Shown here piece by piece: positions 8,666-20,809 of a DNA stretch of 64,000 nucleotides. This DNA comes from Pseudomonadota bacterium (lineage in GTDB: Bacteria; Pseudomonadota; Alphaproteobacteria; Rhizobiales; MH13). The stretch's first letter is position 1. Each line of letters starts with the position of its first letter. The translations under genes and the position numbers were made by a program. The stretch spans positions 124,001-188,000 of the forward strand of contig JBCCPK010000005.1 of assembly GCA_039024915.1 (NCBI GenBank), read 5' to 3'. The notes beneath the pieces were generated by a model, which saw only the letters and a program-made list of their open reading frames with translations, was not told the origin of the DNA and ran no database searches.

Positions 8666-8680
8666 TGGCGCATTTCTTGC
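8666..8680 (+). promoter_or_regulatory. Sigma-54 (RpoN) promoter upstream of nasTS
   Basis: The sequence TGGCGCATTTCTTGC has the -24 GG (8667-8668) and -12 GC (8679-8680) exactly ten bases apart and matches the TGGC-N7-TTGC consensus at all eight defining positions. It lies 37 bp before the nasT start, so transcription would begin near 8692. Nitrogen-controlled sigma-54 promoters of this kind require an enhancer-binding protein such as NtrC, which fits the nitrate assimilation genes that follow. No NtrC site was confirmed. Confidence 0.75.
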
Positions 8681-8717
8681 GACGGCTGCCGACATCGGGA
8701 AGGTGTTGTCGATCGCA

Positions 8718-9341
8718 ATGGATGAGCTGCGTATTCTGATCATTGATGAGAACGCCATTCGTGCGTCCATCCTGTCAGAAGGTCTTCGAGACGCCGGTTA
8801 TGGCAATGTCACGGTCATTGCAGACACCCGCAACCTGCTCAAACGCATCGTTGAGCTGGACCCGGACGCCATCTTTATTGATCTGGAAAACCCCAGCCGC
8901 GATGTCTTGGAACAAATGTTCGAGGTCTCACGCTTCGTTCAGCGACCGATCGCAATGTTTGTCGATCAATCCGACGACGATACGATCAATCAGGCAGTTG
9001 AGGCCGGGGTTTCCGCCTACATTGTCGATGGCCTCAAAAAGGAGCGCATGAAGCCGATCCTCAACATGACGATCGCACGCTTCAAAGCCTTCAACCGCCT
9101 ACAAGAAGAGCTTGCATCCACCAAAGCGGCACTAGAGGAACGCACAGTCATCGACCAGGCGAAACGTCACCTCATGAAGAACGCCGGACTTTCGGAAGAC
9201 GAAGCCTATGCTCGCCTTCGCAGCACCGCCATGGCTCAGGGCAAGCGCATCGCCCAAATCGCGCAGGCCCTCGTGACATCGATCGAGCTGCTGGAAGTCC
9301 CAGACACACCCAAAGGCGAACAAGGTGAGCGCCGACCATGA
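8718..9341 (+). CDS. nasT: NasT: ANTAR-domain RNA-binding antitermination regulator
   Basis: The positive regulator of nitrate assimilation. It binds two-hairpin leader RNA and prevents termination when not held by NasS. The protein has 207 residues: a receiver-like domain (about 4-120, LRILIIDENAIRASIL, DAIFIDLENP) and a C-terminal ANTAR domain (about 130-190, VIDQAKRHLMKNAGLSEDEA, ARLRSTAMAQGKRIAQIA). The ATG at 8718 puts the receiver in register; a TTG at 8703 adds five residues. Its stop overlaps the nasS start by 4 bp (ATGA), so the two are translationally coupled and the complex can form stoichiometrically. A matching target RNA lies at 10693-10804. Confidence 0.93.
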   Translation: MDELRILIIDENAIRASILSEGLRDAGYGNVTVIADTRNLLKRIVELDPDAIFIDLENPSRDVLEQMFEVSRFVQRPIAMFVDQSDDDTINQAVEAGVSAYIVDGLKKERMKPILNMTIARFKAFNRLQEELASTKAALEERTVIDQAKRHLMKNAGLSEDEAYARLRSTAMAQGKRIAQIAQALVTSIELLEVPDTPKGEQGERRP

Positions 9342-10555
9342 CCCAAGTAACCTTACGCGCTGGCTTTATTCCACTGGTCGACGCTGCTCCGCTTATCGTT
9401 GCGCGCGAAATCGGTGTCGCGCGGGCCCATGATATCGACCTGCAATTGAGCCGATCGACATCTTGGGCAGCAGTACGCGACCGCCTCAGCGTGGGCGATG
9501 TCGATTGCGCCCATATGCTATCGCCCATTGTAATCGCATCCCAGTTGGGCCTGGGCAACGCAAAGGCACCCATGATTGCGCCTGCCGGCCTTTCGATGAA
9601 CGGCAACGCCATCTCCGTTTCAACTGAGCTCTATCAGGAGATGCATGATGTCGGCTGGAGTGCGGACATGGTTCGCAACCCCGCAACGTCGGCAGTCGCC
9701 TTGGCGAAGATTATTCGCAAACGCGCCAGCGCAGGAGAACCCGCGCTTACCTTCGCAAGCGTCTACCCGTTTTCCACGCACAGCTATGAGCTGCGCTACT
9801 GGCTTGCATCAGCCGGAATCAACCCCGATACAGACGTCAACCTGACAATCGTACCGCCACCCCTGATGGTGGACGCCCTGGCCGACGGCCAGATCGACGG
9901 CTCCTGCGTAGGAGCGCCATGGAGCAGCATCAGCTTCGAAGTCGGCCATAGCCATATCGTCGCTTTGAAGGCTGACTTGTGGCGACAGGGACCGGAAAAG
10001 GTTCTCGCAGTGCGCGAGCATTGGGCAGATGAGAACCCACAAACGGTTTCTACACTCGTACAGATGCTCATTCATGCGGCGGCTTGGTGCAGCAATCCGG
10101 ACAACACGGACGAGCTTGCTCAATTATTGAGCGATGAGAAATACCTCGGTATTGACGCTGGAATTATTGGCCGAACGCTGCGCGGACTTATCCTCGGCGT
10201 CGGCGAAGCGCCGGTCGAGAACCACCTGCTTTTCGACCCCCATCGGGCCACCTATCCATGGCGCTCCCAAGCACTGTGGTTTTATGCACAAATGGTGAGG
10301 TGGAGGCAGATTGACCATTCAGAGGTGAACGCCCTCGCCGCGAAAAAAGCTTACAGACCAGACATCTATCGAAAAGCATTCGCGACAATTCCATTGTTGG
10401 GCAGCGCGCTGTTCGGTCCAGCTGAAAATGCTTTGGGAGCTCGGAGCCTGGAGGCTTTGGAGGCCGATACAACCTTGTTTGATCAACGACTTTTCGACCC
10501 AGATGATCTTCCAGGCTACTTCTCCGGCCTCGGTCTGAATGTTTCAGTGACGTGA
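9338..10555 (+). CDS. nasS: NasS: cytoplasmic nitrate/nitrite sensor that controls NasT
   Basis: A soluble relative of the NrtA/CmpA nitrate-binding proteins, 405 residues, with no signal peptide (MTQVTLRAGFIPLVDAAP), so it acts in the cytoplasm. In the NasTS systems of Azotobacter, Paracoccus and Bradyrhizobium, NasS sequesters NasT until nitrate binds. Shared features with NrtA downstream include [20 protein letters not shown] and the C-terminal YPWRSQALWFYAQMVRW / YRPDIYRKA blocks. It follows nasT with a 4-bp overlap and precedes the NasT-responsive leader, the arrangement expected for the sensor. It is clearly a paralogue of NrtA (10869-12284). Confidence 0.92.
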   Translation: MTQVTLRAGFIPLVDAAPLIVAREIGVARAHDIDLQLSRSTSWAAVRDRLSVGDVDCAHMLSPIVIASQLGLGNAKAPMIAPAGLSMNGNAISVSTELYQEMHDVGWSADMVRNPATSAVALAKIIRKRASAGEPALTFASVYPFSTHSYELRYWLASAGINPDTDVNLTIVPPPLMVDALADGQIDGSCVGAPWSSISFEVGHSHIVALKADLWRQGPEKVLAVREHWADENPQTVSTLVQMLIHAAAWCSNPDNTDELAQLLSDEKYLGIDAGIIGRTLRGLILGVGEAPVENHLLFDPHRATYPWRSQALWFYAQMVRWRQIDHSEVNALAAKKAYRPDIYRKAFATIPLLGSALFGPAENALGARSLEALEADTTLFDQRLFDPDDLPGYFSGLGLNVSVT

Positions 10556-10692
10556 TGTCTTTATTCGGCTCACCAGACGTAAGGGAAGTCCTCAGGTGGC
10601 GCATTGCAGCGCACACAAAAGGTGCACTGCGTTGCAGCAAATGATGAATATTTGATCTGTTATCATTCTAATCTAGCTGCCATCGTCTTTCT

Positions 10693-10754
10693 GTCAGCAA
10701 TGGCGCTGACAATCCCGGTCTTTGCAATCCGACCTCGTCGGCAACGTCGCCAAC
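10693..10754 (+). promoter_or_regulatory. NasT (ANTAR) binding leader RNA: two hexaloop hairpins
   Basis: The nrtA leader contains two hairpins whose six-base loops both have A at position 1 and G at position 4, the known hallmark of ANTAR targets. Hairpin P1 (10693-10710) has the stem GTCAGC/GCTGAC and loop AATGGC. Hairpin P2 (10737-10754) has the stem GTCGGC/GCCAAC with one C-A mismatch and loop AACGTC. The linker is 26 nt. P2 overlaps the 5' arm of the intrinsic terminator that starts at 10745, so P2 and the terminator cannot form together. NasT binding should therefore favour read-through into nrtABCD. Confidence 0.8.
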
Positions 10755-10804
10755 CCAACAAGCGCTTCTTTACAGAGCGTAAATGTTGGTTAGCGGCGTT
10801 TTTT
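10745..10804 (+). terminator. Leader terminator controlled by NasT
   Basis: A long stem pairs 10745-10760 with 10784-10798 (outer CGTCGC/GCGGCG with one G-U pair; inner AA/TT and CCAACA/TGTTGG, with a mismatch and a bulged C between). The large loop holds a small inner hairpin (CGCT/AGCG), and six T residues follow at 10799-10804. It lies 64 bp before the nrtA start and overlaps the second NasT hairpin, which fits regulated attenuation. The rest of the nasS-nrtA gap (10556-10692) must contain the promoter, but I found no convincing one. Confidence 0.82.
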
Positions 10805-10868
10805 GCTGTGCGGGATTGGAGTTGCAAGGGACGGATCGCCGGAACCAACTCCAAAAAGGAATTGCGAC

Positions 10869-12284
10869 ATGTCCCCCCTAAACCTTGCATGGCAGGCCAC
10901 GCGCTCGACGTCTCGGGCCGTCGCGTTTGCCAGCCTCATTGGTGCCAGCGCCATCGCTTTAACGGCGCCCGCGCAGGCTGAATTTCTTGATCTTGAAATT
11001 GAAGATCTAACGTTCGGCTTCATCAAGCTGACCGATATGGCGCCGCTCGCGGTGGCTTACGAGCTTGGCTATTTCGAGGACGAAGGTCTGTTCGTCACCT
11101 TGGAAGCGCAAGCCAACTGGAAAGTTTTGCTCGACGGTGTGATCGACGGTCGGCTTCAGGGAGCGCACATGCTCGCCGGGCAGCCACTCGCCGCGACCAT
11201 CGGTTACGGGACCGAGGCACACATTATCACCCCGTTTTCGATGGACTTGAACGGCAACGGGATCACCGTTTCCAACGAGGTATGGGACCTTATGCGTCCG
11301 CATATCCCATCCATGGATGATGGTCGCCCACAACACCCGATTTCAGCCGAAGCGCTCCTACCGGTGATTGAACAGTTCCGCGATGAGGGGCGTCCCTTCA
11401 ATATGGGCATGGTCTTCCCGGTTTCGACGCACAACTACGAGCTGCGTTACTGGCTCGCTGCTGGCGGTGTACACCCGGGTTACTATTCGCCGGAGGACGT
11501 AACCGGCCAAATACAGGCCGATGCCTTTCTTTCCGTGACGCCCCCACCGCAAATGCCCGCTACCCTCGAAGCTGGCACCATCTACGGGTACGCGGTGGGT
11601 GAACCGTGGAACCAGCAAGCCGTGTTCCGCGGCATCGGTGTTCCTGTGATTACCGATTATCAGCTGTGGAAAAACAATCCCGAGAAGGTTTTCGGCATCA
11701 CCGCCGAGTTCGCCGAGGAAAACCCGAACACAACGTTGGCTATCACAAAAGCGCTGATCCGTGCCGCGCAGTGGCTCGACGAAAACGACAATGCCAACCG
11801 TGAGGAAGCCGTCGCTATGCTGTCGATGCCGCAATATGTCGGCGCCGATGAGGAAGTGATCGCGGCCTCCATGACCGGCACCTTCGAGTTCGAAAAAGGC
11901 GATGTTCGGGAAATCCCGGACTTCAACGTCTTCTTCCGGTACTACGCGACCTACCCCTACTATTCGGATGCCGTCTGGTACCTCACGCAAATGCGTCGTT
12001 GGGGTCAGATCGCCGAACAAATGCCGGACAGCTGGTATGATGAGGTTGCTCGGTCGGTCTACCGTCCAGACATCTATCTCGAAGCCGCCCGTATGTTGGT
12101 CGATGAGGGTCTCGTCTCTGAAGAGGACTTCCCTTGGGACACGGACGGTTACCGTGAGCCGACGGACGAGTTCATCGACGGCATCACCTACGACGGACGC
12201 CAGCCCAACGCTTATCTCGAAGCTCTGCCCATCGGCTTGCGCGACGACGAGCGCGTGGTTGGCGCAGATGTTGTGACGAACTGA
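10869..12284 (+). CDS. nrtA: Nitrate ABC transporter substrate-binding protein NrtA
   Basis: The periplasmic nitrate/nitrite-binding component, 471 residues. The ATG at 10869 follows AAGGA and gives a long signal peptide with a hydrophobic core ([15 protein letters not shown]) and cleavage after AQA at about residue 37. The mature part has the NrtA/CmpA core: [48 protein letters not shown] and the C-terminal [23 protein letters not shown] and [13 protein letters not shown] blocks. It begins the transporter operon after the NasT-regulated leader. A short GC stem-loop at 12305-12317 lies between nrtA and nrtB and may protect the nrtA mRNA. Confidence 0.94.
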
Positions 12285-12385: not shown

Positions 12386-13477
12386 ATGACCACCGCTTCA
12401 GAATTTGACGCTGCAACAGATGATGCGGCGGTCCGCGAGGCCAAAAAAGAGGCTCGCTTCGCTGCCATCACCAAAGCCGGTGGCTATCTCAATATTCTTG
12501 GTCTTGGCTGGCTTGTGCCGATCCTCAAGATCGCCGCTGGTGACAGCCCCAAATATCAGATGCGCGAGCTTTGGCAGCTGCTGGTTGTGCCACTTATCGG
12601 CATCGGCTTGTTCCTTGCCGCCTGGGCCACCCTTGCGCCGCAGGTCCAGACCTCACTTGGCGCCATCCCCGGTCCTGCGCAGGTCTGGGACGAGGCGGTC
12701 GGGCTGCACGAGAGCTATCTGGCCCAGAAAGAGCGCGCGGCAGCCTTTTACGAGCGCCAGGAAGCACGCAATGCCGAGCTGATCGCGGCCGGTCGCGAGG
12801 ACCGTGTCCGCGAGCGGCAGTACACCGGCCAAGCCACGTACTATGACCAGATTTTTACCTCCCTGTGGACCGTTACCGTAGGCTTCCTCTTAGCAACGGT
12901 GATCGCGGTGCCGTTGGGGATCGCGTCTGGCCTATCGCGTACCGTCAATGGCGCGATCAACCCGCTTATTCAGATTTTCAAACCAGTCTCACCGCTGGCT
13001 TGGTTGCCGATCGTAACCATGGTGGTCTCCGCAACCTACATCAATGTCGTTGAGCCGCTTCCAAAGTCACTGGTGATCTCCGCCATCACCGTGACGTTGT
13101 GCTCGCTCTGGCCGACACTCATCAACACCGCCCTAGGCGTTTCCTCGGTCGATAAGGACCTGATGAATGTTGGTCGCGTGCTCCAGCTACCGACGTGGAA
13201 AACCGTCACCAAACTGGTTCTGCCGTCCGCCCTGCCGCTCATATTCACCGGTCTGCGCCTGTCACTTGGTGTGGGCTGGATGGTGCTGATTGCCGCCGAG
13301 ATGCTCTCGCAGAACCCTGGCCTGGGCAAATTCGTCTGGGATGAGTTCCAGAACGGGTCCTCCTCCTCCCTCGCAAAGATCATCGTCGCGGTCCTCACCA
13401 TCGGCATCATCGGCTTCCTTCTGGACCGTGTGATGTATGCCCTTCAGGCCGCCTTCACCTTCTCCAGCCAACGCTAG
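12386..13477 (+). CDS. nrtB: Nitrate ABC transporter permease NrtB
   Basis: The inner-membrane permease for nitrate/nitrite, 363 residues. It is longer than SsuC/TauC-type relatives because of a hydrophilic N-terminal tail (about residues 1-65) and a charged insert (about 110-150, rich in Glu and Arg) before the permease core. The core contains GLRLSLGVGWMVLIAAEML and LGKFVWDEFQNGSSSSLAKI, and the EAA-type loop LMNVGRVLQLPTWKTVTKLVLPSA would contact the ATPase. The start follows a GAGG-type site. It sits between nrtA and the double-ATPase gene with short gaps, so one operon is likely. Confidence 0.93.
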   Translation: MTTASEFDAATDDAAVREAKKEARFAAITKAGGYLNILGLGWLVPILKIAAGDSPKYQMRELWQLLVVPLIGIGLFLAAWATLAPQVQTSLGAIPGPAQVWDEAVGLHESYLAQKERAAAFYERQEARNAELIAAGREDRVRERQYTGQATYYDQIFTSLWTVTVGFLLATVIAVPLGIASGLSRTVNGAINPLIQIFKPVSPLAWLPIVTMVVSATYINVVEPLPKSLVISAITVTLCSLWPTLINTALGVSSVDKDLMNVGRVLQLPTWKTVTKLVLPSALPLIFTGLRLSLGVGWMVLIAAEMLSQNPGLGKFVWDEFQNGSSSSLAKIIVAVLTIGIIGFLLDRVMYALQAAFTFSSQR

Positions 13478-13501
13478 TTTCGGCAGACAGGGATAAAGAA
13501 A

Positions 13502-15277
13502 ATGAGTTTTCTCAGTCTCAAGAACGTCTCCAAGACCTACCGCACGGCGGCGGAGACCACAGAGGTCCTCAGGGACATCAACCTGGAAGTTGAGGAGCGG
13601 GAATTCGTTGCCATCGTTGGCTTCTCCGGCTCCGGCAAGACCACACTGATCTCGCTGATCGCAGGTCTTGTCCAGGCCGATAGCGGTGAGATCACGCTCA
13701 AGGGCGCTCCGATTACCGGGCCGTCCCCCGATCGCGGCGTGGTGTTCCAGAACTACTCCCTGATGCCTTGGCTCACGGTCGAGGGCAACATTGCACTGGC
13801 CGTCGATGAGGTCTTCAAGGACGAGGACACCAAGACCCGGGCGATCCGCGTGTCGGACGCCATCGATATGGTTGGCCTGTCCCACGCGGTGGACCGCCGA
13901 CCGGCAGAATTGTCGGGCGGGATGCGTCAGCGCGTGGCAGTGGCCCGCGCCTTGGCCATGAGCCCGGATATGCTGCTACTCGATGAGCCGCTTTCCGCGC
14001 TTGACGCACTAACGCGCGCCAAGCTGCAGGATGAGATCGAAGCGATCTGGGAGAACGACCAGAAAACCGTCATTCTCATCACCAATGACGTCGATGAAGC
14101 CGTGCTTTTGGCCGATCGCATCATACCCCTTAACCCGGGACCGGGTGCCACGTTCGGCCCCGAGTTCAAAGTCGACATCCCCCGTCCGCGGGACAGGGTC
14201 GCGATGAACTCGGACGAGCGCGCGATCCATTTGCGTGCGGAGGTCACAAACTACCTGCTCGAAGTCGGCGCGGAGCGCGGTGCTGCGGTCGATGCAGACA
14301 TCAAACTACCCGACATTGTCCCGATCGATCTATTTAAAGGCAAAAAGCTGTCCGGAACGGACCCTGAACTGCCCAAAGCATACACGGACGCGGCGCAATC
14401 AAGCACCGACAAAAAGTACCTCGAGTTCGTCAACCTCAAAAAGATTTACCCGACGCCGAAGGGCCCGCTGACAGTTGTCGACGGATTTGAGACGCGTATC
14501 GATAAGGGTGAGTTCATCACCTTGATCGGTCACTCGGGCTGCGGGAAATCGACCGTTCTGTCGATGGTTGCCGGACTGAACGAGATCTCCGACGGTGGCA
14601 TCGTTCTTGACAATCGGGAGATCGATGTTGCCGGCCCGGATCGTGCCGTGGTGTTCCAGGCTCCATCCTTGATGCCTTGGATGACAGCCTACGAAAACGT
14701 CTCGCTAGGCGTAGATCGGGTCTACCCGAACGCATCCGACAGCGAGCGCCGGGACATCTGCGAATACTATCTTTCTCGCGTTGGCCTTGGTGACGCGATG
14801 AAGAAGATGGCCTCCGATCTCTCCAACGGCATGAAGCAGCGTGTCGGCATTGCGCGGGCATTCGCTCTATCGCCAAAACTCCTTCTGCTCGATGAGCCCT
14901 TTGGGATGCTGGATTCGCTGACCCGATGGGAGCTGCAGGAAGTCCTCATGGACGTCTGGAAGCGCACGCAGGTCACCGCCATCTGCGTGACCCACGACGT
15001 TGATGAGGCCATCCTGCTTGCCGACAAATGTGTGATGATGACCAACGGGCCGAACGCGCGCATCGGCAACATCATGGAAGTAGACTTGCCGCGTCCGCGC
15101 TCACGCAAGGCTTTGTTGGAGCATCCAGACTACTACCGCTACCGCCAGGAACTTCTCGACTTCCTCGAAGCCTATGAAGGCGGTGCGACCCCAGACCCAG
15201 CCGTTCTTGAAGCGATCAAAGCCAAGTCTGCTAAAACCGCTGAAAAGAACGCCGAAACGCTTCAGGCTGCGGAGTAG
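13502..15277 (+). CDS. Fused double ATP-binding protein of the nitrate transporter (NrtC-NrtD type)
   Basis: A cytoplasmic ATPase with two complete ABC domains in one 591-residue chain. Domain 1 is about residues 1-260 and domain 2 about 305-560. Domain 1: Walker [10 protein letters not shown], signature LSGGMRQR, Walker [13 protein letters not shown], but the switch reads ITNDVDEA, with Asn for the usual His. Domain 2: Walker [10 protein letters not shown], signature LSNGMKQR, Walker [13 protein letters not shown] and an intact switch VTHDVDEA. Each composite site uses the Walker/switch parts of one domain and the signature of the other. So site 1 (domain 1 plus LSNGM) is degenerate and site 2 (domain 2 plus LSGGM) is canonical. 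Cyanobacteria instead use separate NrtC (ATPase plus NrtA-like domain) and NrtD. Confidence 0.92.
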
Positions 15278-15282
15278 GATCG

Positions 15283-17748
15283 ATGAACAAGCAAAGACTT
15301 GTTGTCATCGGCAACGGAATGGCGCCCGGTCGTGCGCTTGAGCACGTGCTCGAACACGCCGCCGATGCATTCGACATCACGATCTTCAACGCCGAGCCGC
15401 GCGTCAATTACGATCGGATCATGCTTTCGCCCGTCCTCTCGGGCGAGAAGGCTTATGAAGATATCATCATTCATGGCGATGAATGGTACGCCGAGCACGG
15501 CGTCACTCTGCACAAGGGACAAAAGGTAACCAAGCTTGACCGGTCAACCAAAACGGTCACGTCGAATAAAGGTGTTTCTGCCAGCTATGACAAACTGATC
15601 ATTGCAACCGGCTCCAACCCCTTCATCATCCCTGTGCCCGGCCACGATCAGCCCGGCGTCATCACCTACCGCGATCTCGACGATGTCGACGCCATGTTGG
15701 CCGCTGCCGACAAGGGTGCGAGAGCTGTGGTCATTGGCGGCGGTCTCCTGGGGCTCGAAGCTGCCGCAGGGTTAAAGATGCGCGGCATAGACGTGTCGGT
15801 GGTACACCTCATGCCGACGCTTATGGAACGCCAACTCGACGCATCTGCGGGTTACCTCCTGCAAAGCGAGCTTGAGCGACGGGGCATCGCGATCCACTGC
15901 GGTGCCAACACCAAACGCATCCTTGGCGACGGCGCTGTGGAAGGGATCGAGCTGGAGAACGGCACGATTATTCCGTGCGAACTCGTCGTGATGGCTGTCG
16001 GTATACGGCCGAATGCGAGCCTCGCAAAAGAAGCTGGTCTTGAAACCAACCGCGGTATCTTGACCGATAGCCTCATGCGCACCTCAGACCCCGATATCTA
16101 TTCGGTCGGAGAATGCGCTGAGGTTGGCGGGATGTGTTACGGGCTCGTCGCGCCGCTTTACGATCAGGCCAGAGTAGCCGGGCTGCATATCGCCGGGCAG
16201 ATAACAGAGCCCTACAAACACTCCGATACCGCAACGAGGCTCAAGGTTACCGGCATCAACCTGTTTTCGGCCGGTGACTTTGCCGAGGGAGATGATCGCG
16301 AGGAGATTGTTCTGCGCGATGCACAAGCGGGCATCTACAAGCGGCTTGTTATCAAAGACAATGCCATCATCGGCGTCGTTTTGTATGGCGAAGTTGCCGA
16401 CGGCGCATGGTTCTTTCAGATGATGAAGGACGCAACCGACATATCGGAGATGCGCGAAACCCTTATATTCGGTCAGGCCTATCAGGGGGGCGAACCCCTG
16501 GACCCTATGGCGGCCGTTGCAGCCTTGCCAGATGATGCGGAAATCTGCGGCTGCAACGGCGTTTGCAAGGGCACCATCACTGGCGCCATCACCGACAAGG
16601 GCCTGACTTCGCTCGATGAGGTGCGCGCCCACACCAAGGCGTCTGCATCGTGCGGCACCTGCACGGGTCTCGTTGAAAGCCTGATGGCTCACACACTGGG
16701 AGACGCGTACAACCCAGCAGCCGTCCAACCAATGTGCGGCTGCACCGATCTTGGCCACGCTGATGTCCGGCGCCTCATCAAGGCAAAAGGTCTCAAAACC
16801 ATTCCCGCAGTTATGCAGGAACTGGAGTGGAAGACGTCCTGCGGCTGCGCGAAATGCCGACCTGCACTCAACTACTACCTCGTGTGCGACTGGCCCGATG
16901 AGTATGCCGACGATTACCAGTCGCGCTTCATCAACGAACGGGCCCACGCCAATATTCAGAAGGACGGCACCTATTCCGTTGTTCCCAGAATGTGGGGGGG
17001 ACAGACGTCCTCCAAAGAGCTGCGCGCCATCGCCGATGTGGTCGACAAGTTCGACATCCCGACCGTCAAGGTGACCGGTGGTCAGCGCATCGACATGCTG
17101 GGCATCAAGAAGGAAGACCTCCCGGCAGTCTGGTCCGATCTGGGCAAGGCTGGCTTCGTTTCCGGGCACGCCTACGCCAAGGGCCTGCGCACCGTAAAGA
17201 CCTGTGTGGGCACCGACTGGTGTCGCTTCGGCACGCAGGATTCCACGGGTCTGGGCGTCCGTATCGAGAAATTCATGTGGGGTTCCTGGACGCCGGCGAA
17301 GGTCAAGATGGCGGTCTCAGGCTGCCCCCGAAATTGCGCGGAAGCCACTTGCAAGGATGTTGGGGTGGTCTGCGTCGACTCCGGCTATGAAATCCACTTC
17401 GCGGGGGCGGCAGGCCTCGACATTAAGGGTACCGAGGTTCTGGGACTCGTCAAAACCGAAGACGAAGCCCTCGAACATATTGTTGCGGTCACGCAGATGT
17501 ACCGTGAACAGGGCCACTATCTTGAGCGGATCTACAAATGGGCCAAACGCATCGGCTATGACGAGGTGCGCCGCCAGATTATGGACGATCCGGACAAGCG
17601 GAAAGCCTATTACGATCGCTTCGTCTTCTCGCAGCGGTTCGCGCAGGTCGATCCATGGAAGGAACGGGTCGATGCCGAGCCTCAGGCGGACATCTTCGCC
17701 GAGTACAGACCGATGGCGGACCTTACACTTCTGGAGGCAGCGCAATGA
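15283..17748 (+). CDS. nirB: Assimilatory NAD(P)H nitrite reductase, large subunit
   Basis: Reduces nitrite to ammonium in the cytoplasm, 821 residues. Order of parts: FAD fold (GNGMAPG near residue 7), NAD fold (VVIGGGLLGLEAAAG near 149), BFD-type [2Fe-2S] region (CGCNGVCKGTI near 421, with a second Cys cluster CGCTDLGHADV and CGCAKCRP near 486-530), nitrite/sulfite reductase ferredoxin-like half-domain, then the siroheme/[4Fe-4S] motif (TCVGTDWC near 638 and GCPRNCAEATC near 679). All cluster cysteines are present. It starts 5 bp after nrtCD and overlaps nirD by 4 bp. In Paracoccus the equivalent NasB also feeds electrons to the nitrate reductase; the same is likely here. Confidence 0.95.
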   Translation: MNKQRLVVIGNGMAPGRALEHVLEHAADAFDITIFNAEPRVNYDRIMLSPVLSGEKAYEDIIIHGDEWYAEHGVTLHKGQKVTKLDRSTKTVTSNKGVSASYDKLIIATGSNPFIIPVPGHDQPGVITYRDLDDVDAMLAAADKGARAVVIGGGLLGLEAAAGLKMRGIDVSVVHLMPTLMERQLDASAGYLLQSELERRGIAIHCGANTKRILGDGAVEGIELENGTIIPCELVVMAVGIRPNASLAKEAGLETNRGILTDSLMRTSDPDIYSVGECAEVGGMCYGLVAPLYDQARVAGLHIAGQITEPYKHSDTATRLKVTGINLFSAGDFAEGDDREEIVLRDAQAGIYKRLVIKDNAIIGVVLYGEVADGAWFFQMMKDATDISEMRETLIFGQAYQGGEPLDPMAAVAALPDDAEICGCNGVCKGTITGAITDKGLTSLDEVRAHTKASASCGTCTGLVESLMAHTLGDAYNPAAVQPMCGCTDLGHADVRRLIKAKGLKTIPAVMQELEWKTSCGCAKCRPALNYYLVCDWPDEYADDYQSRFINERAHANIQKDGTYSVVPRMWGGQTSSKELRAIADVVDKFDIPTVKVTGGQRIDMLGIKKEDLPAVWSDLGKAGFVSGHAYAKGLRTVKTCVGTDWCRFGTQDSTGLGVRIEKFMWGSWTPAKVKMAVSGCPRNCAEATCKDVGVVCVDSGYEIHFAGAAGLDIKGTEVLGLVKTEDEALEHIVAVTQMYREQGHYLERIYKWAKRIGYDEVRRQIMDDPDKRKAYYDRFVFSQRFAQVDPWKERVDAEPQADIFAEYRPMADLTLLEAAQ

Positions 17749-18107
17749 ACGTTCACGTCTCATCGGTTCAATGGATCGCAATCGGTAACCTATCAGACAT
17801 TCCGGTACGCGGTGCCCGCTGCGTGGTCACGCCGTTGGGCAAGATTGGTATTTTTCGCACCGCCAGCGACACGGTTTTTGCGATCGAAGATCATTGCCCT
17901 CACAAGGGCGGCCCCCTGACCCAGGGCATCGTTCATGGGCGATCGGTTACCTGCCCGCTGCATAACTGGGTCATCGACCTCGAAACCGGTCAGGCGCAAG
18001 GCGCAGATGAAGGGTCGGTCGAGACACTACCGATCCGCGTCACCGATGGCGACGTGATCGAACTGGGCCTTGAACCCGCAACGCTTGCTGCGGTGGCGGA
18101 CGGGTAA
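17745..18107 (+). CDS. nirD: Nitrite reductase small subunit, Rieske-type (NirD/NasG)
   Basis: A 120-residue Rieske [2Fe-2S] protein. The ligands are C51 and H53 in DHCPHKGGPL and C70 and H73 in TCPLHNW, so the cluster should be functional; some NirD proteins lack these residues. The ATG at 17745 overlaps the nirB stop (ATGA). By analogy to Paracoccus NasG it probably shuttles electrons from NirB to both the nitrite and the nitrate reductase. Gene order nirB-nirD-nasA matches nasB-nasG-nasC if the Paracoccus transporter gene is left out. Confidence 0.92.
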   Translation: MNVHVSSVQWIAIGNLSDIPVRGARCVVTPLGKIGIFRTASDTVFAIEDHCPHKGGPLTQGIVHGRSVTCPLHNWVIDLETGQAQGADEGSVETLPIRVTDGDVIELGLEPATLAAVADG

Positions 18108-18112
18108 CCCCG

Positions 18113-20809
18113 ATGGATGCCGGGCCTGCCAAAACGATACGCACCACCTGCCCTTATTGCGGGGTGGGTTGCGGCATACAAGCAACCCAGTCAGCGGCTG
18201 GTGTGACCGTCAACGGAGATAAGGCGCATCCTGCCAATTTCGGCCGCCTGTGCTCCAAGGGAACCCAGCTTGCCGAGACCATCGGGCTCGAAGACCGGCT
18301 GCTGTACCCGGAGATCGCAGGGACCCGGTCAAGCTGGACCGATGCGATCAACACCGTTGCCGACGCATTCACGAACGCGATTGCCGAGCACGGACCCGAG
18401 TCTGTTGCATTCTATGTTTCGGGCCAGCTTCTGACCGAGGATTATTACGTTACCAATAAGCTGATGAAAGGCTTTATCGGCTCGGCCAACATCGATACCA
18501 ATTCGCGGCTGTGCATGGCTTCCTCCGTTGCTGGCCACAAGCGTGCCTTCGGTGCCGATACCGTTCCCGGCACCTATGAGGATCTCGAGCTTGCCGATCT
18601 GGTAGTCCTGACTGGCTCCAACCTCGCCTGGTGCCACCCGGTCCTCTACCAGCGCATCGCCGCCGCGAAGAAGGAGCGCGCCGGCGGGTCCAACCCGATG
18701 CGCGTGGTGGTCATCGATCCACGCCGCACCGCCACCTGCGCTATCGCAGATCTCCACCTACCATTGGCACCAGACACCGACGTCGCTCTGTTTACCGGTC
18801 TTTTGCGGCACCTTGCGCGCGTTTCGGTTGCACACGAGCACTATGTCGATGCGCACACCGTCGGCATTGATGAAGCTCTGTCCGATGCACAGAGCTGGAC
18901 CATCGAGCGCGTGTCGGAGACCTGCAGGCTTCGGCCTTCCGAGGTGGCGCGCTTCTACGATTGGGTAACGTCGACAACGAAAACGGTCACCGTCTATTCG
19001 CAAGGCGTCAATCAATCGACGAGCGGCACCGATAAGGTTGGCTCCATCATCAATACCCATCTTCTAACCGGTCGCATTGGCAAGCCTGGGATGGGTCCCT
19101 TTTCGGTCACCGGTCAACCAAACGCCATGGGTGGCAGAGAGGTTGGCGGCCTCGCCAACATGCTCGCGGCCCACATGGAGCTTGCCAACCCCGACCACAG
19201 GCAAACAGTCCAGGCCTTTTGGGGCAGCCCGACGATAGCCGATAAGCCGGGCCTTAAGGCCGTCGATCTGTTTGAGGCGATCCATGATGGCCGGATCAAG
19301 GCACTTTGGGTCATGGCGACAAACCCAGCCGTTTCACTGCCAGACGCGGACCGTGTCGATGACGCGCTCGCAAAGGTGCCATTTCTTGCGGTCTCCGATG
19401 TCGTCTCGAGCACGGATACACTGCGCCACACGCGTCGGCCGGGTGGTGTTGCGCTCCCAGCCAGCGCCTGGGCCGAGAAAGACGGCACGGTCACAAACTC
19501 CGAGCGCGTCATCTCCCGCCAGAAAGGGTTTCTGCCGCTTCCTGGTGAAGCGCGGCACGACTGGCGGATCATATGCGATGTGGCAGATGCCATGGGCTTC
19601 GGACATGGATTTGACTTTGCATCGCCCCATGAAGTCTTCGATGAACATGCCCGCCTGTCCGGTGCAGGCAAACCGTTGACCCGCGACTTCGACATATCCG
19701 GCCTCGCTGGACTGTCCAAGGCAGCTTACGATGCCCTGAACCCTGTCCGCTGGCCGCTCCGCGCAGATGGTGCACGAACGGAGCGCTTCTTTGCCCAAGG
19801 CGGTTTCTATCACCCTGACGGCAAGGCCCGCTTCATCGTCCCGAAGCACACGACGGCACAAAAGCACGAGCCGAAGTACCCGTTCACATTGAACACCGGC
19901 CGCGTTCGGGACCACTGGCACACCATGACGCGGACCGGACGAAGCCCGCGATTGTCCGGCCATATGGCCGAGCCATACTGCGAACTTCACACCCATGACG
20001 CCAAGCGTTTGGGCATCACGCCAGCCTCTCTTGTGCGCCTGTCGTCTCCGCATGGTTCAGCAGTCTTGCGTGCGCTGGTCACCGATGATCAGCAGGTTGG
20101 AAGCGTCTTCGCTCCAATGCATTGGAACGCACAAACGTCAAACGGCGGGCGCATCGACGCCCTCGTCGCACCTGAAACCGATCCGTTTTCCGGTCAACCG
20201 GCTTTGAAGTTTTCCCGCGTGAGGGTGAAACCGGCGGGGATGGCCTGGCACGGCTTCGCCGTTCTGGCTGAGCGCCCGTCGACCCTGCCTTTTGCCTACT
20301 GGTCGATTGCAACATGTGAAGGCGGCTTTGCGCTGGAATTCGCCGACACCGAACCTTCTGAAAGCCTCGCAGCCATTGCAAGCGAGCTGATCGGCGGGAA
20401 ACCTGATCTTGGCTATGAAGACCGCGTCGCGGGCAGCGCCCGGTTCGTCTCCCATCAAGGGCGAAAACTAAGCGCTGCCGTCTTCATCGCCCGTGAACCG
20501 GTAGCCGTATCCAGGCGCTGGGCAATCGGCATGCTGACCGAACCGCTAGGTGACGCCCGCAGCCGATTGGCGCTGCTCGCCGGTCGCCCTGCGGCTAGCC
20601 AGGCCGATCATGGACCTATTGTTTGTTCCTGCTTCTCGGTCGGACGCAACACCATCAACACTGCAATTGCAGGTGGAGCCAGTACCGTCGAAGAGGTTGG
20701 CACGCGCTGCAAGGCCGGCACCAATTGCGGCTCCTGCCGGTCCGAAATCTCAGGCCTTCTCGAGCGCGCGGGCACAGCGCCCCCCGCCTTGCTGGAGTCC
20801 GCCGAATGA
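18113..20809 (+). CDS. nasA: Assimilatory nitrate reductase catalytic subunit
   Basis: A cytoplasmic molybdenum enzyme that reduces nitrate to nitrite, 898 residues. An N-terminal [4Fe-4S] site is formed by C13, C16, C20 and C47 (CPYCGVGC, GRLCSKG). Molybdopterin-guanine-dinucleotide domains follow (DTNSRLCMASSV holds the likely Mo-ligand Cys; TGQPNAMGGREVGG; NTGRVRDHWHTMTRTGRSP). A C-terminal BFD-like [2Fe-2S] domain holds VCSCFSVGRNTI and CKAGTNCGSC at about 835-885. No signal peptide is present, which separates it from periplasmic NapA. No FAD-type reductase partner is encoded in the cluster, so electrons probably come through NirB/NirD. The stop overlaps cysG by 4 bp. Confidence 0.95.
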   Translation: MDAGPAKTIRTTCPYCGVGCGIQATQSAAGVTVNGDKAHPANFGRLCSKGTQLAETIGLEDRLLYPEIAGTRSSWTDAINTVADAFTNAIAEHGPESVAFYVSGQLLTEDYYVTNKLMKGFIGSANIDTNSRLCMASSVAGHKRAFGADTVPGTYEDLELADLVVLTGSNLAWCHPVLYQRIAAAKKERAGGSNPMRVVVIDPRRTATCAIADLHLPLAPDTDVALFTGLLRHLARVSVAHEHYVDAHTVGIDEALSDAQSWTIERVSETCRLRPSEVARFYDWVTSTTKTVTVYSQGVNQSTSGTDKVGSIINTHLLTGRIGKPGMGPFSVTGQPNAMGGREVGGLANMLAAHMELANPDHRQTVQAFWGSPTIADKPGLKAVDLFEAIHDGRIKALWVMATNPAVSLPDADRVDDALAKVPFLAVSDVVSSTDTLRHTRRPGGVALPASAWAEKDGTVTNSERVISRQKGFLPLPGEARHDWRIICDVADAMGFGHGFDFASPHEVFDEHARLSGAGKPLTRDFDISGLAGLSKAAYDALNPVRWPLRADGARTERFFAQGGFYHPDGKARFIVPKHTTAQKHEPKYPFTLNTGRVRDHWHTMTRTGRSPRLSGHMAEPYCELHTHDAKRLGITPASLVRLSSPHGSAVLRALVTDDQQVGSVFAPMHWNAQTSNGGRIDALVAPETDPFSGQPALKFSRVRVKPAGMAWHGFAVLAERPSTLPFAYWSIATCEGGFALEFADTEPSESLAAIASELIGGKPDLGYEDRVAGSARFVSHQGRKLSAAVFIAREPVAVSRRWAIGMLTEPLGDARSRLALLAGRPAASQADHGPIVCSCFSVGRNTINTAIAGGASTVEEVGTRCKAGTNCGSCRSEISGLLERAGTAPPALLESAE

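Follow-up and report, generated by a model that had tools for sequence, protein, structure and literature searches.

The window, by which we mean the whole 64,000-nucleotide stretch of DNA analysed here, contains a nitrate assimilation locus with a putative leader RNA in front of its transporter gene. The gene nasT (8718-9341, plus strand; Pfam Response_reg 6.7e-11, ANTAR 4.3e-17) is followed by a gene for a nitrate sensor of the NrtA fold family (9338-10555, plus strand; Pfam NMT1_2 3.4e-73), which we take to be nasS on the basis of its position beside nasT and of established NasS-NasT systems. Both genes lie directly upstream of the leader, as the first-pass annotation had placed them, and their Pfam domains agree with this. 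Downstream of the leader, nrtA (10869-12284, plus strand; Pfam NMT1_2 6.7e-88) encodes the substrate-binding protein of a nitrate-type ABC transporter; its ATG at 10869 is preceded by AAGGA, and it is the candidate first regulated gene. The following genes on the same strand (12386-20809) encode a permease, a double ATPase, a NirB-type nitrite reductase, a small ORF with a Rieske-like motif, and a molybdopterin oxidoreductase, which judging from its context would be the nitrate reductase. Together with nrtA they presumably form one transcript. As in NasS-NasT systems, the nasT-nasS pair adjoins nitrate assimilation genes.

NasT consists of a receiver-like domain and an ANTAR RNA-binding domain, and resembles Rv1626 (PDB 1s8n) and EutV (PDB 6wsh). 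It is the single ANTAR match in its genome (3.9 Mb, 35 contigs, 97.6% complete). The usual lysine of receiver domains has a role in phosphate-based control. This lysine is missing in NasT (IVDGL, compared with LVKPL in EutV), which fits control by NasS and not by phosphate. The ANTAR helix of the window NasT reads LEERTVIDQAKRHLM, with T and Q where its relatives have K and R/K, respectively. All 12 NasT sequences of relatives caught by a search pattern (copies of the window excluded) have K and R/K at these sites, as do the congener L003 (ERKLVDRAKLFLM) and G001 (L250). By our own alignment the two sites correspond to K143 and K147 of EutV, given as RNA-contacting in the EutV paper; the T and Q could weaken RNA binding.

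The most upstream of the two hexaloop hairpins of the leader is hairpin 1, the distal one, TGTCAGC(AATGGC)GCTGACA (10692-10711, plus strand; 7 pairs, loop 10699-10704). Hairpin 2, the antiterminator hexaloop hairpin GGC(AACGTC)GCC (10740-10751, plus strand; loop 10743-10748), has 3 pairs, or 5 if one C.A mismatch is allowed. Both loops, which the first-pass annotation had named as AATGGC and AACGTC, carry A at position 1 and G at position 4 (A1/G4) on stems of at least 3 bp. An intrinsic terminator follows (10743-10804, plus strand; stem 10743-10800, T6 at 10799-10804). Its folding energy, computed for 10738-10804, is -26.3 kcal/mol (z -4.64), a value equalled by 0 of 200 dinucleotide shuffles. 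The overlap of hairpin 2 with a long U6 terminator, likewise proposed at first pass, is found as well: the 5' arm of the terminator is made up of the loop and the 3' arm of hairpin 2, with bases 10743-10750 in common, and the two structures are therefore mutually exclusive. A simple terminator scan of 10500-10900 does not return this terminator because its stem is long and imperfect. The fold of 10690-10804 offers an alternative hairpin, CCGAC(CTC)GTCGG (10729-10741, plus strand), which is a competitor of both hairpin 2 and the spacer hairpin described below and is absent, by eye, from the congeneric leaders L002 and L003. It would hold the 5' arm of hairpin 2, by which termination would be favoured.

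The distance between hairpins 1 and 2 is 28 nt, or 25 nt with the mismatch-extended form of hairpin 2, and ranges from 25 to 31 nt in the window and both congeners with nasS (L002, L003). In a third congener (G002, 98% complete) no NasS match was obtained at E 1e-60. As far as the accessible text of these studies goes, the linker of Enterococcus eut leaders is 5-12 nt long and a linker of 14 nt drastically impaired induction (PMC3369931), a 20-nt extension of the linker abolished antitermination by EutV in vitro (PMC8934654), and a curated set of actinobacterial ANTAR targets used linkers of 2-25 nt (PMC8164766). The linker in the window is outside the eut range, and its 25-nt count is at the edge of the actinobacterial one. 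A layout with loops pushed apart like this would not be predicted to function by the published spacing rule. The description of the locus as a NasT/ANTAR antitermination leader is upheld as to its kind, by the adjoining nasTS and the covarying relatives, but with loops 25-28 nt apart it is not the clean example that it had been called.

In the minimum-energy fold of 10680-10756 the gap contains a spacer hairpin without A1/G4 hexaloop, GGTC(TTTGCAATCC)GACC (10717-10734, plus strand), with 4 bp and a 10-nt loop. Taken alone, the window spacer has a z of -0.85, and 20% of dinucleotide shuffles fold equally well, compared with 11% for L002 and 2.3% for L003. The arms GGTC and GACC are retained in both congeners, and the loop varies in length and letters. 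Since the arms are invariant in the three congeneric sequences, they provide no covariation test within the genus, and the case for a spacer hairpin in the window rests on position and congeners. Hairpin 1 is likewise retained in L002 and L003 with regard to position and loop type (AAYGGN), on a stem of 6-7 bp. Distal, spacer and terminator-overlapping hairpins can all form in the window, L002 and L003.

To place this layout among its relatives, we surveyed regions downstream of nasS. NasS matches were obtained in at least 180 of 397 genomes of the order and in 53 of 385 genomes of the class, and 145 downstream sites including the window were examined, mostly the best matches of those lists. 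Excluded before this count were L012-L023, then L001 and L024-L026, which are copies of the window, of L002 and of L003, and the duplicates L108, L126 and L157; the count of 145 may still hold further near-duplicates. An A1/G4 hairpin overlapping a terminator was detected by rule at 79 of the 145 sites, and L003, whose T run is TTTT, was included manually, which brings the set to 80 leaders. By rule, 66 regions (65 once L003 is added) have no such leader. These 80 leaders were selected by the terminator-overlapping hexaloop only, blind to any first hairpin. A second A1/G4 hairpin lies at most 12 nt upstream in 48 of the 80 (0.4 expected from dinucleotide shuffles), the hairpins being 1-9 nt apart, and a more distal one is present in 32 (1.9 expected, same shuffles). 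This divides the leaders into 36 with an adjacent hairpin only, 20 with a distal one only, 12 with both and 12 with neither; as related sites depend on each other, these counts exceed the number of events. In the typical adjacent form, GGCGTCC(AATGGC)GGGCGCC is followed after 3-4 nt by GGC(AAAGCT)GCC. The window, L002 and L003 are of the distal-only kind. A distal loop of the form AAYGRC is found in 16 of the 80 leaders, against an expected 0.07.

Several variants were observed in this set. The 12 leaders with three A1/G4 hexaloops (distal, adjacent and terminator-overlapping) include L044, L088, L091, L085, L112, L117, L120 and L139. In L047, L099, L115, L124, L133, L134 and L136 the second hexaloop hairpin is GAC(AYCGAC)GTC. 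Measured by eye against the shared terminator arm CGTCGC, it stands 3 nt earlier than in the genus of the window, so that the register of the antiterminator is shifted. Four leaders (L070, L095, L159, L160) have, by eye, G for A at position 1 of the loop beside the antiterminator, for example GATGAC; the A1 rule may be relaxed in them.

An Rfam search of the window leader gave no family match at the gathering score, a level reached only by a tRNA, and below-threshold matches over the leader were taken as chance. For covariance analysis, alignments mixing the genus of the window with the Rhizobium type misplaced hairpins and were dropped, and two models were therefore built. The adjacent layout (alignment A2, 21 leaders) gave model R1. 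In A2, 7 of the 11 pairs of the P1 and P2 stems have changed on both sides, a signal that is lost when the partners are slid against each other. Model R1 matches the window at 12.7 bits (E 0.16 in 64 kb) and places its first hairpin on the spacer hairpin. In the whole genome R1 has 17 matches up to E 5, the best at E 0.25, and the leader is not among them. When the genome was searched with the leader DNA, 15 short matches were obtained in addition to the leader, the best of them at E 0.009. The sensitivity of both searches is low, and further targets may exist.

The spaced layout (alignment A4, 27 leaders, 25 of family f23 and 2 of f41) gave model R2. A4 contains 26 of the 33 spaced loci described below, together with L115. 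The seven left out for a different spacer shape (L181, L182, L204, L207, L209, L210, L214) all match R2, at 32-58 bits. The distal loop reads AANGGC in 27 of 27 rows, and the spacer loop is not conserved. Changes on both sides are seen in 3 of 6 pairs of the distal stem and in 6 of 7 pairs of the spacer stem, where 78% of cells are paired; the three hairpin-2 pairs are invariant and hence uninformative on covariation. Unguided folding of A4 by RNAalifold places three hairpins at the same positions, including 4 of the 7 spacer pairs. Covariation of both stems, which the first-pass annotation had proposed to look for, is supported among relatives by the adjacent-type alignment, and for the distal stem by the spaced-type one as well. 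For 22 of 37 leaders, the spacer stretch equals or beats 95% of its dinucleotide shuffles; over all 37 the mean z is -2.04. With mononucleotide shuffles, which also cover L133 and L134 (39 leaders), the mean z is -2.12.

Families outside the training set are matched by R2 as well (L133 and L134 at 34.6 bits, L056 at 24.5 bits). The window leader scores a weak 9.8 bits, in register on all three hairpins (10693-10751; 301-nt search, no filters). A search of 118 kb does not report the leader and gives three other places in the window at 14.9, 11.6 and 10.4 bits, of which the first (18738-18784) is inside the nitrate reductase gene; the three are regarded as chance matches. At a cut-off of E 0.001, R2 has no match anywhere in the genome. 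Across the class, 40 of 385 genomes have a match at E <= 0.001. Among 30 loci inspected (L230 and L242 at a guessed offset), three have a run of five T, and two of these were judged real, namely L234 (identical to L056) and L244, just downstream of a NasS match; the third is L233. The other 27, without such a run, were taken as noise, which makes the whole-genome E-values of R2 unusable.

The spaced layout recurs in family f23. We regard this family as Rhizobiaceae, since its leader DNA also occurs in plasmids of Rhizobium, Sinorhizobium, Ciceribacter and Pararhizobium. Leader DNA matches 250 plasmid records (Rhizobium 133, Sinorhizobium 115, the rest Ciceribacter and Pararhizobium), and the layout was checked in two of them. 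Within f23, 39 of 247 genomes match one spaced leader by DNA at E 0.01, some of them partially. A distal hexaloop, a spacer and a second hexaloop with T run were found at 33 of 36 loci, which is not a prevalence, the loci having been drawn from DNA matches to two spaced leaders with a rule that required AA at the start of the loop. The rule does not find the layout at L183, L184 and L213, of which L213 still matches R2 at 32.4 bits. The two plasmids checked are pSymA of Sinorhizobium meliloti 2011 (L254), where the spaced leader stands before an nrtA-type gene, and pSym of strain B399 (L255), where it precedes nirB (TIGR02374, 900.6 bits, above cut-off). Directly downstream of the NasS match on pSymB of S. 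meliloti 1021 (L256), no leader was found by rule.

Genes after six spaced leaders were searched in NCBIfam. L198 is followed by a NirB match and L204 by a NarK-type match, both below the curated cut-offs and the former truncated at the end of the locus. Three more genes match the SsuA family weakly, and two of them, after L189 and L179, match NMT1_2 in Pfam; the gene after L194 has no NCBIfam match.

Genomes with a single ANTAR match link this layout to NasT. In G117, G299, G294 and G490, each with one ANTAR match, a spaced leader lies directly after nasS. G280 has exactly one ANTAR match and both layouts. An adjacent-type leader lies after its NasS and in front of a NarK-type transporter (TIGR00886, 205 bits, against a cut-off of 311.7; gene truncated at the end of the locus), and at another site a spaced leader stands before a gene of the nrtA type (Pfam NMT1_2). 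This combination suggests that the single NasT of G280 probably reads adjacent and spaced leaders alike. Hence, the spaced form is very probably read by NasT.

Concerning transcription, a sigma-54 element (at least 10 of 12 consensus letters, within 130 bases upstream) is present in 49 of 78 leaders, against 0.43 expected. Transcription usually starts about 12 nt after such an element. By this distance, transcription of the spaced leaders L047, L056 and L124 would begin at the foot of the distal hairpin or slightly upstream of it. In L254 and L255 a -24/-12 element starts 36 nt before the loop in each. The window leader has no recognisable sigma-54 element, although the genome has rpoN, and that of L002 is poor (8/12); a block at about 10648-10687 is partly common to the window, L002 and L003. 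A promoter scan of 10500-10900 gave only a sigma-70 site and a terminator-like site, both on the minus strand. In the window as a whole, the sigma-54 pattern is about as frequent as expected by chance (36 copies, 35.35 expected), so that its copy before nasT (8666-8681) is no evidence.

Based on the hairpins and their overlap with the terminator, the gene neighbours, the single ANTAR match, the spaced relatives and the spacer covariation in Rhizobium/Sinorhizobium, all of them read from DNA, we consider it very likely that the leader is a transcription attenuator controlled by NasS and NasT, in which a spacer hairpin probably folds the gap between the hexaloops. In Paracoccus, nitrate frees NasT from NasS, according to the accessible part of PMC3795266. 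By analogy, in the absence of nitrate NasS would hold NasT, hairpin 2 would not persist, and the terminator (10743-10800) would form and stop RNA polymerase at the U tract. With nitrate present, NasT would be freed and would bind the distal hexaloop once transcribed, capturing and stabilising hairpin 2 so that the operon is read through. The spacer hairpin, at the usual position of the first hexaloop, probably folds the gap such that NasT still reaches hairpin 2, and would leave about 10 unpaired bases and one helix end to be spanned from loop to loop. We infer this bridging, as well as NasT binding and the response to nitrate. Forcing hairpin 2 costs 7.4 kcal/mol in the window, compared with a median of 10.0 over the 80 leaders (ViennaRNA), a cost which the bound protein could pay.

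The spacing would be irrelevant if hairpin 2 alone sufficed for NasT and the distal and spacer hairpins served pausing, stability or the 5' end. EutV dimers, as far as the accessible text of PMC8934654 goes, contact one hexaloop at a time with similar affinities for single loops, which is consistent with this idea. However, the 16 leaders with a distal AAYGRC loop, where 0.07 are expected, argue against it, as does the in vivo requirement of EutV for both hairpins given in part of PMC3369931, and we regard it as unlikely.

Somewhat less probable still is that the distal hairpin is a relic and that NasT pairs the spacer hairpin, with a relaxed loop, with hairpin 2 at an ordinary distance. The gap between these two hairpins is 5 nt, like in ordinary leaders, and the placement of the first R1 hairpin on the spacer points the same way. 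Yet A1/G4 is absent from the spacer loop, whose length and letters differ in all three congeneric sequences, whereas in the congeners the distal loop stays AAYGGN on a 6-7 bp stem; the AANGGC distal loop of all 27 aligned spaced leaders, beside an unconserved spacer loop, likewise speaks against a relic.

A lone hexaloop hairpin is weak evidence, as 116 A1/G4 hexaloops on 3 or more pairs, and 11 on 7 or more, lie on the plus strand of the window, but a constitutive terminator between nasTS and nrtA with hexaloops by chance, to which this abundance would lend itself, is very improbable given a leader conserved in congeners and across the order.

Returning to the attenuator with a folded gap, we tentatively hypothesize a three-hairpin plan for alphaproteobacterial NasT leaders, a generalisation that may well hold without being the outcome we would expect outright. 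The terminator hexaloop would work with an adjacent hexaloop, a distal one or both, and one NasT would accept both distances, reach and not linker length being decisive. Equally tentatively, where only the distal hexaloop is used, as in the genus of the window and in many Rhizobium/Sinorhizobium, the middle hairpin would be reduced to a structural spacer. If this plan is true, it is three-dimensional reach, rather than the length of the linker, that governs hexaloop recruitment.

The way in which a single ANTAR dimer makes use of two hexaloops is not yet settled. The EutV structure of 2022 argues against both being bound at once, and the model drawn from it relies on a strict linker length, according to the accessible part of PMC8934654. 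Natural leaders whose loops are separated by 25-40 nt and a hairpin, and G280, where one NasT seems to meet both layouts, put this linker model directly to the test. Search models with short linkers can miss spaced leaders, as R1 does in the window. In addition, nrtA- and nirB-type genes emerge as probable NasT targets in Sinorhizobium meliloti, where regulation is stated to be as yet unknown in the accessible part of a 2019 paper (PMC6616083).

A NasT attenuator as such is of a known kind; the spaced hexaloops with a hairpin in the gap appear to be new. Within the open-access literature, no ANTAR leader with a hairpin between its hexaloops was found. The layout may already be in print, for example in subscription literature. 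A study of the Bradyrhizobium nosR leader reportedly appeared in 2017.

Among the systems close to the window are the Sinorhizobium leaders L254 and L255, which share the distal AAYGGC hexaloop and the A1/G4 hairpin overlapping the terminator, and have a spacer hairpin like the possible one of the window. The terminator of L254 and L255 ends in GCGGCG-T7. They differ in their strong spacer stem (6-7 bp) and good sigma-54 element, and their second hexaloop lies, by eye, 3 nt earlier on the terminator arm. The known systems are compared as far as the accessible text of the cited papers allows. The nasF leader of Klebsiella, read by NasR, is alike in that an ANTAR protein antiterminates a nitrate assimilation operon in response to nitrate, and in A1/G4, which are essential there, but has a one-protein sensor, and P1, P2 and terminator are described for it without a spacer hairpin (PMC3369936). 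The nasA leader of Paracoccus denitrificans has nasT-nasS directly upstream, a NasT released by nitrate, leader hairpins and premature termination, all like the arrangement proposed here, and its hairpin HI is required for growth on nitrate; in the same portions of text neither loop letters nor a spacer hairpin are described (PMC3795266, PMC5424462). The first regulated gene is nasA there and nrtA in the window. The EutV leaders of Enterococcus faecalis have two A1/G4 hexaloops, the second on the terminator, and a REC-ANTAR protein, as in the window, but their linker of 5-12 nt is length-sensitive and EutV is activated by phosphorylation (PMC3369931, PMC8934654). The window, by contrast, has 25-28 nt between its loops, where a spacer hairpin may form, and sensing would be performed by NasS.
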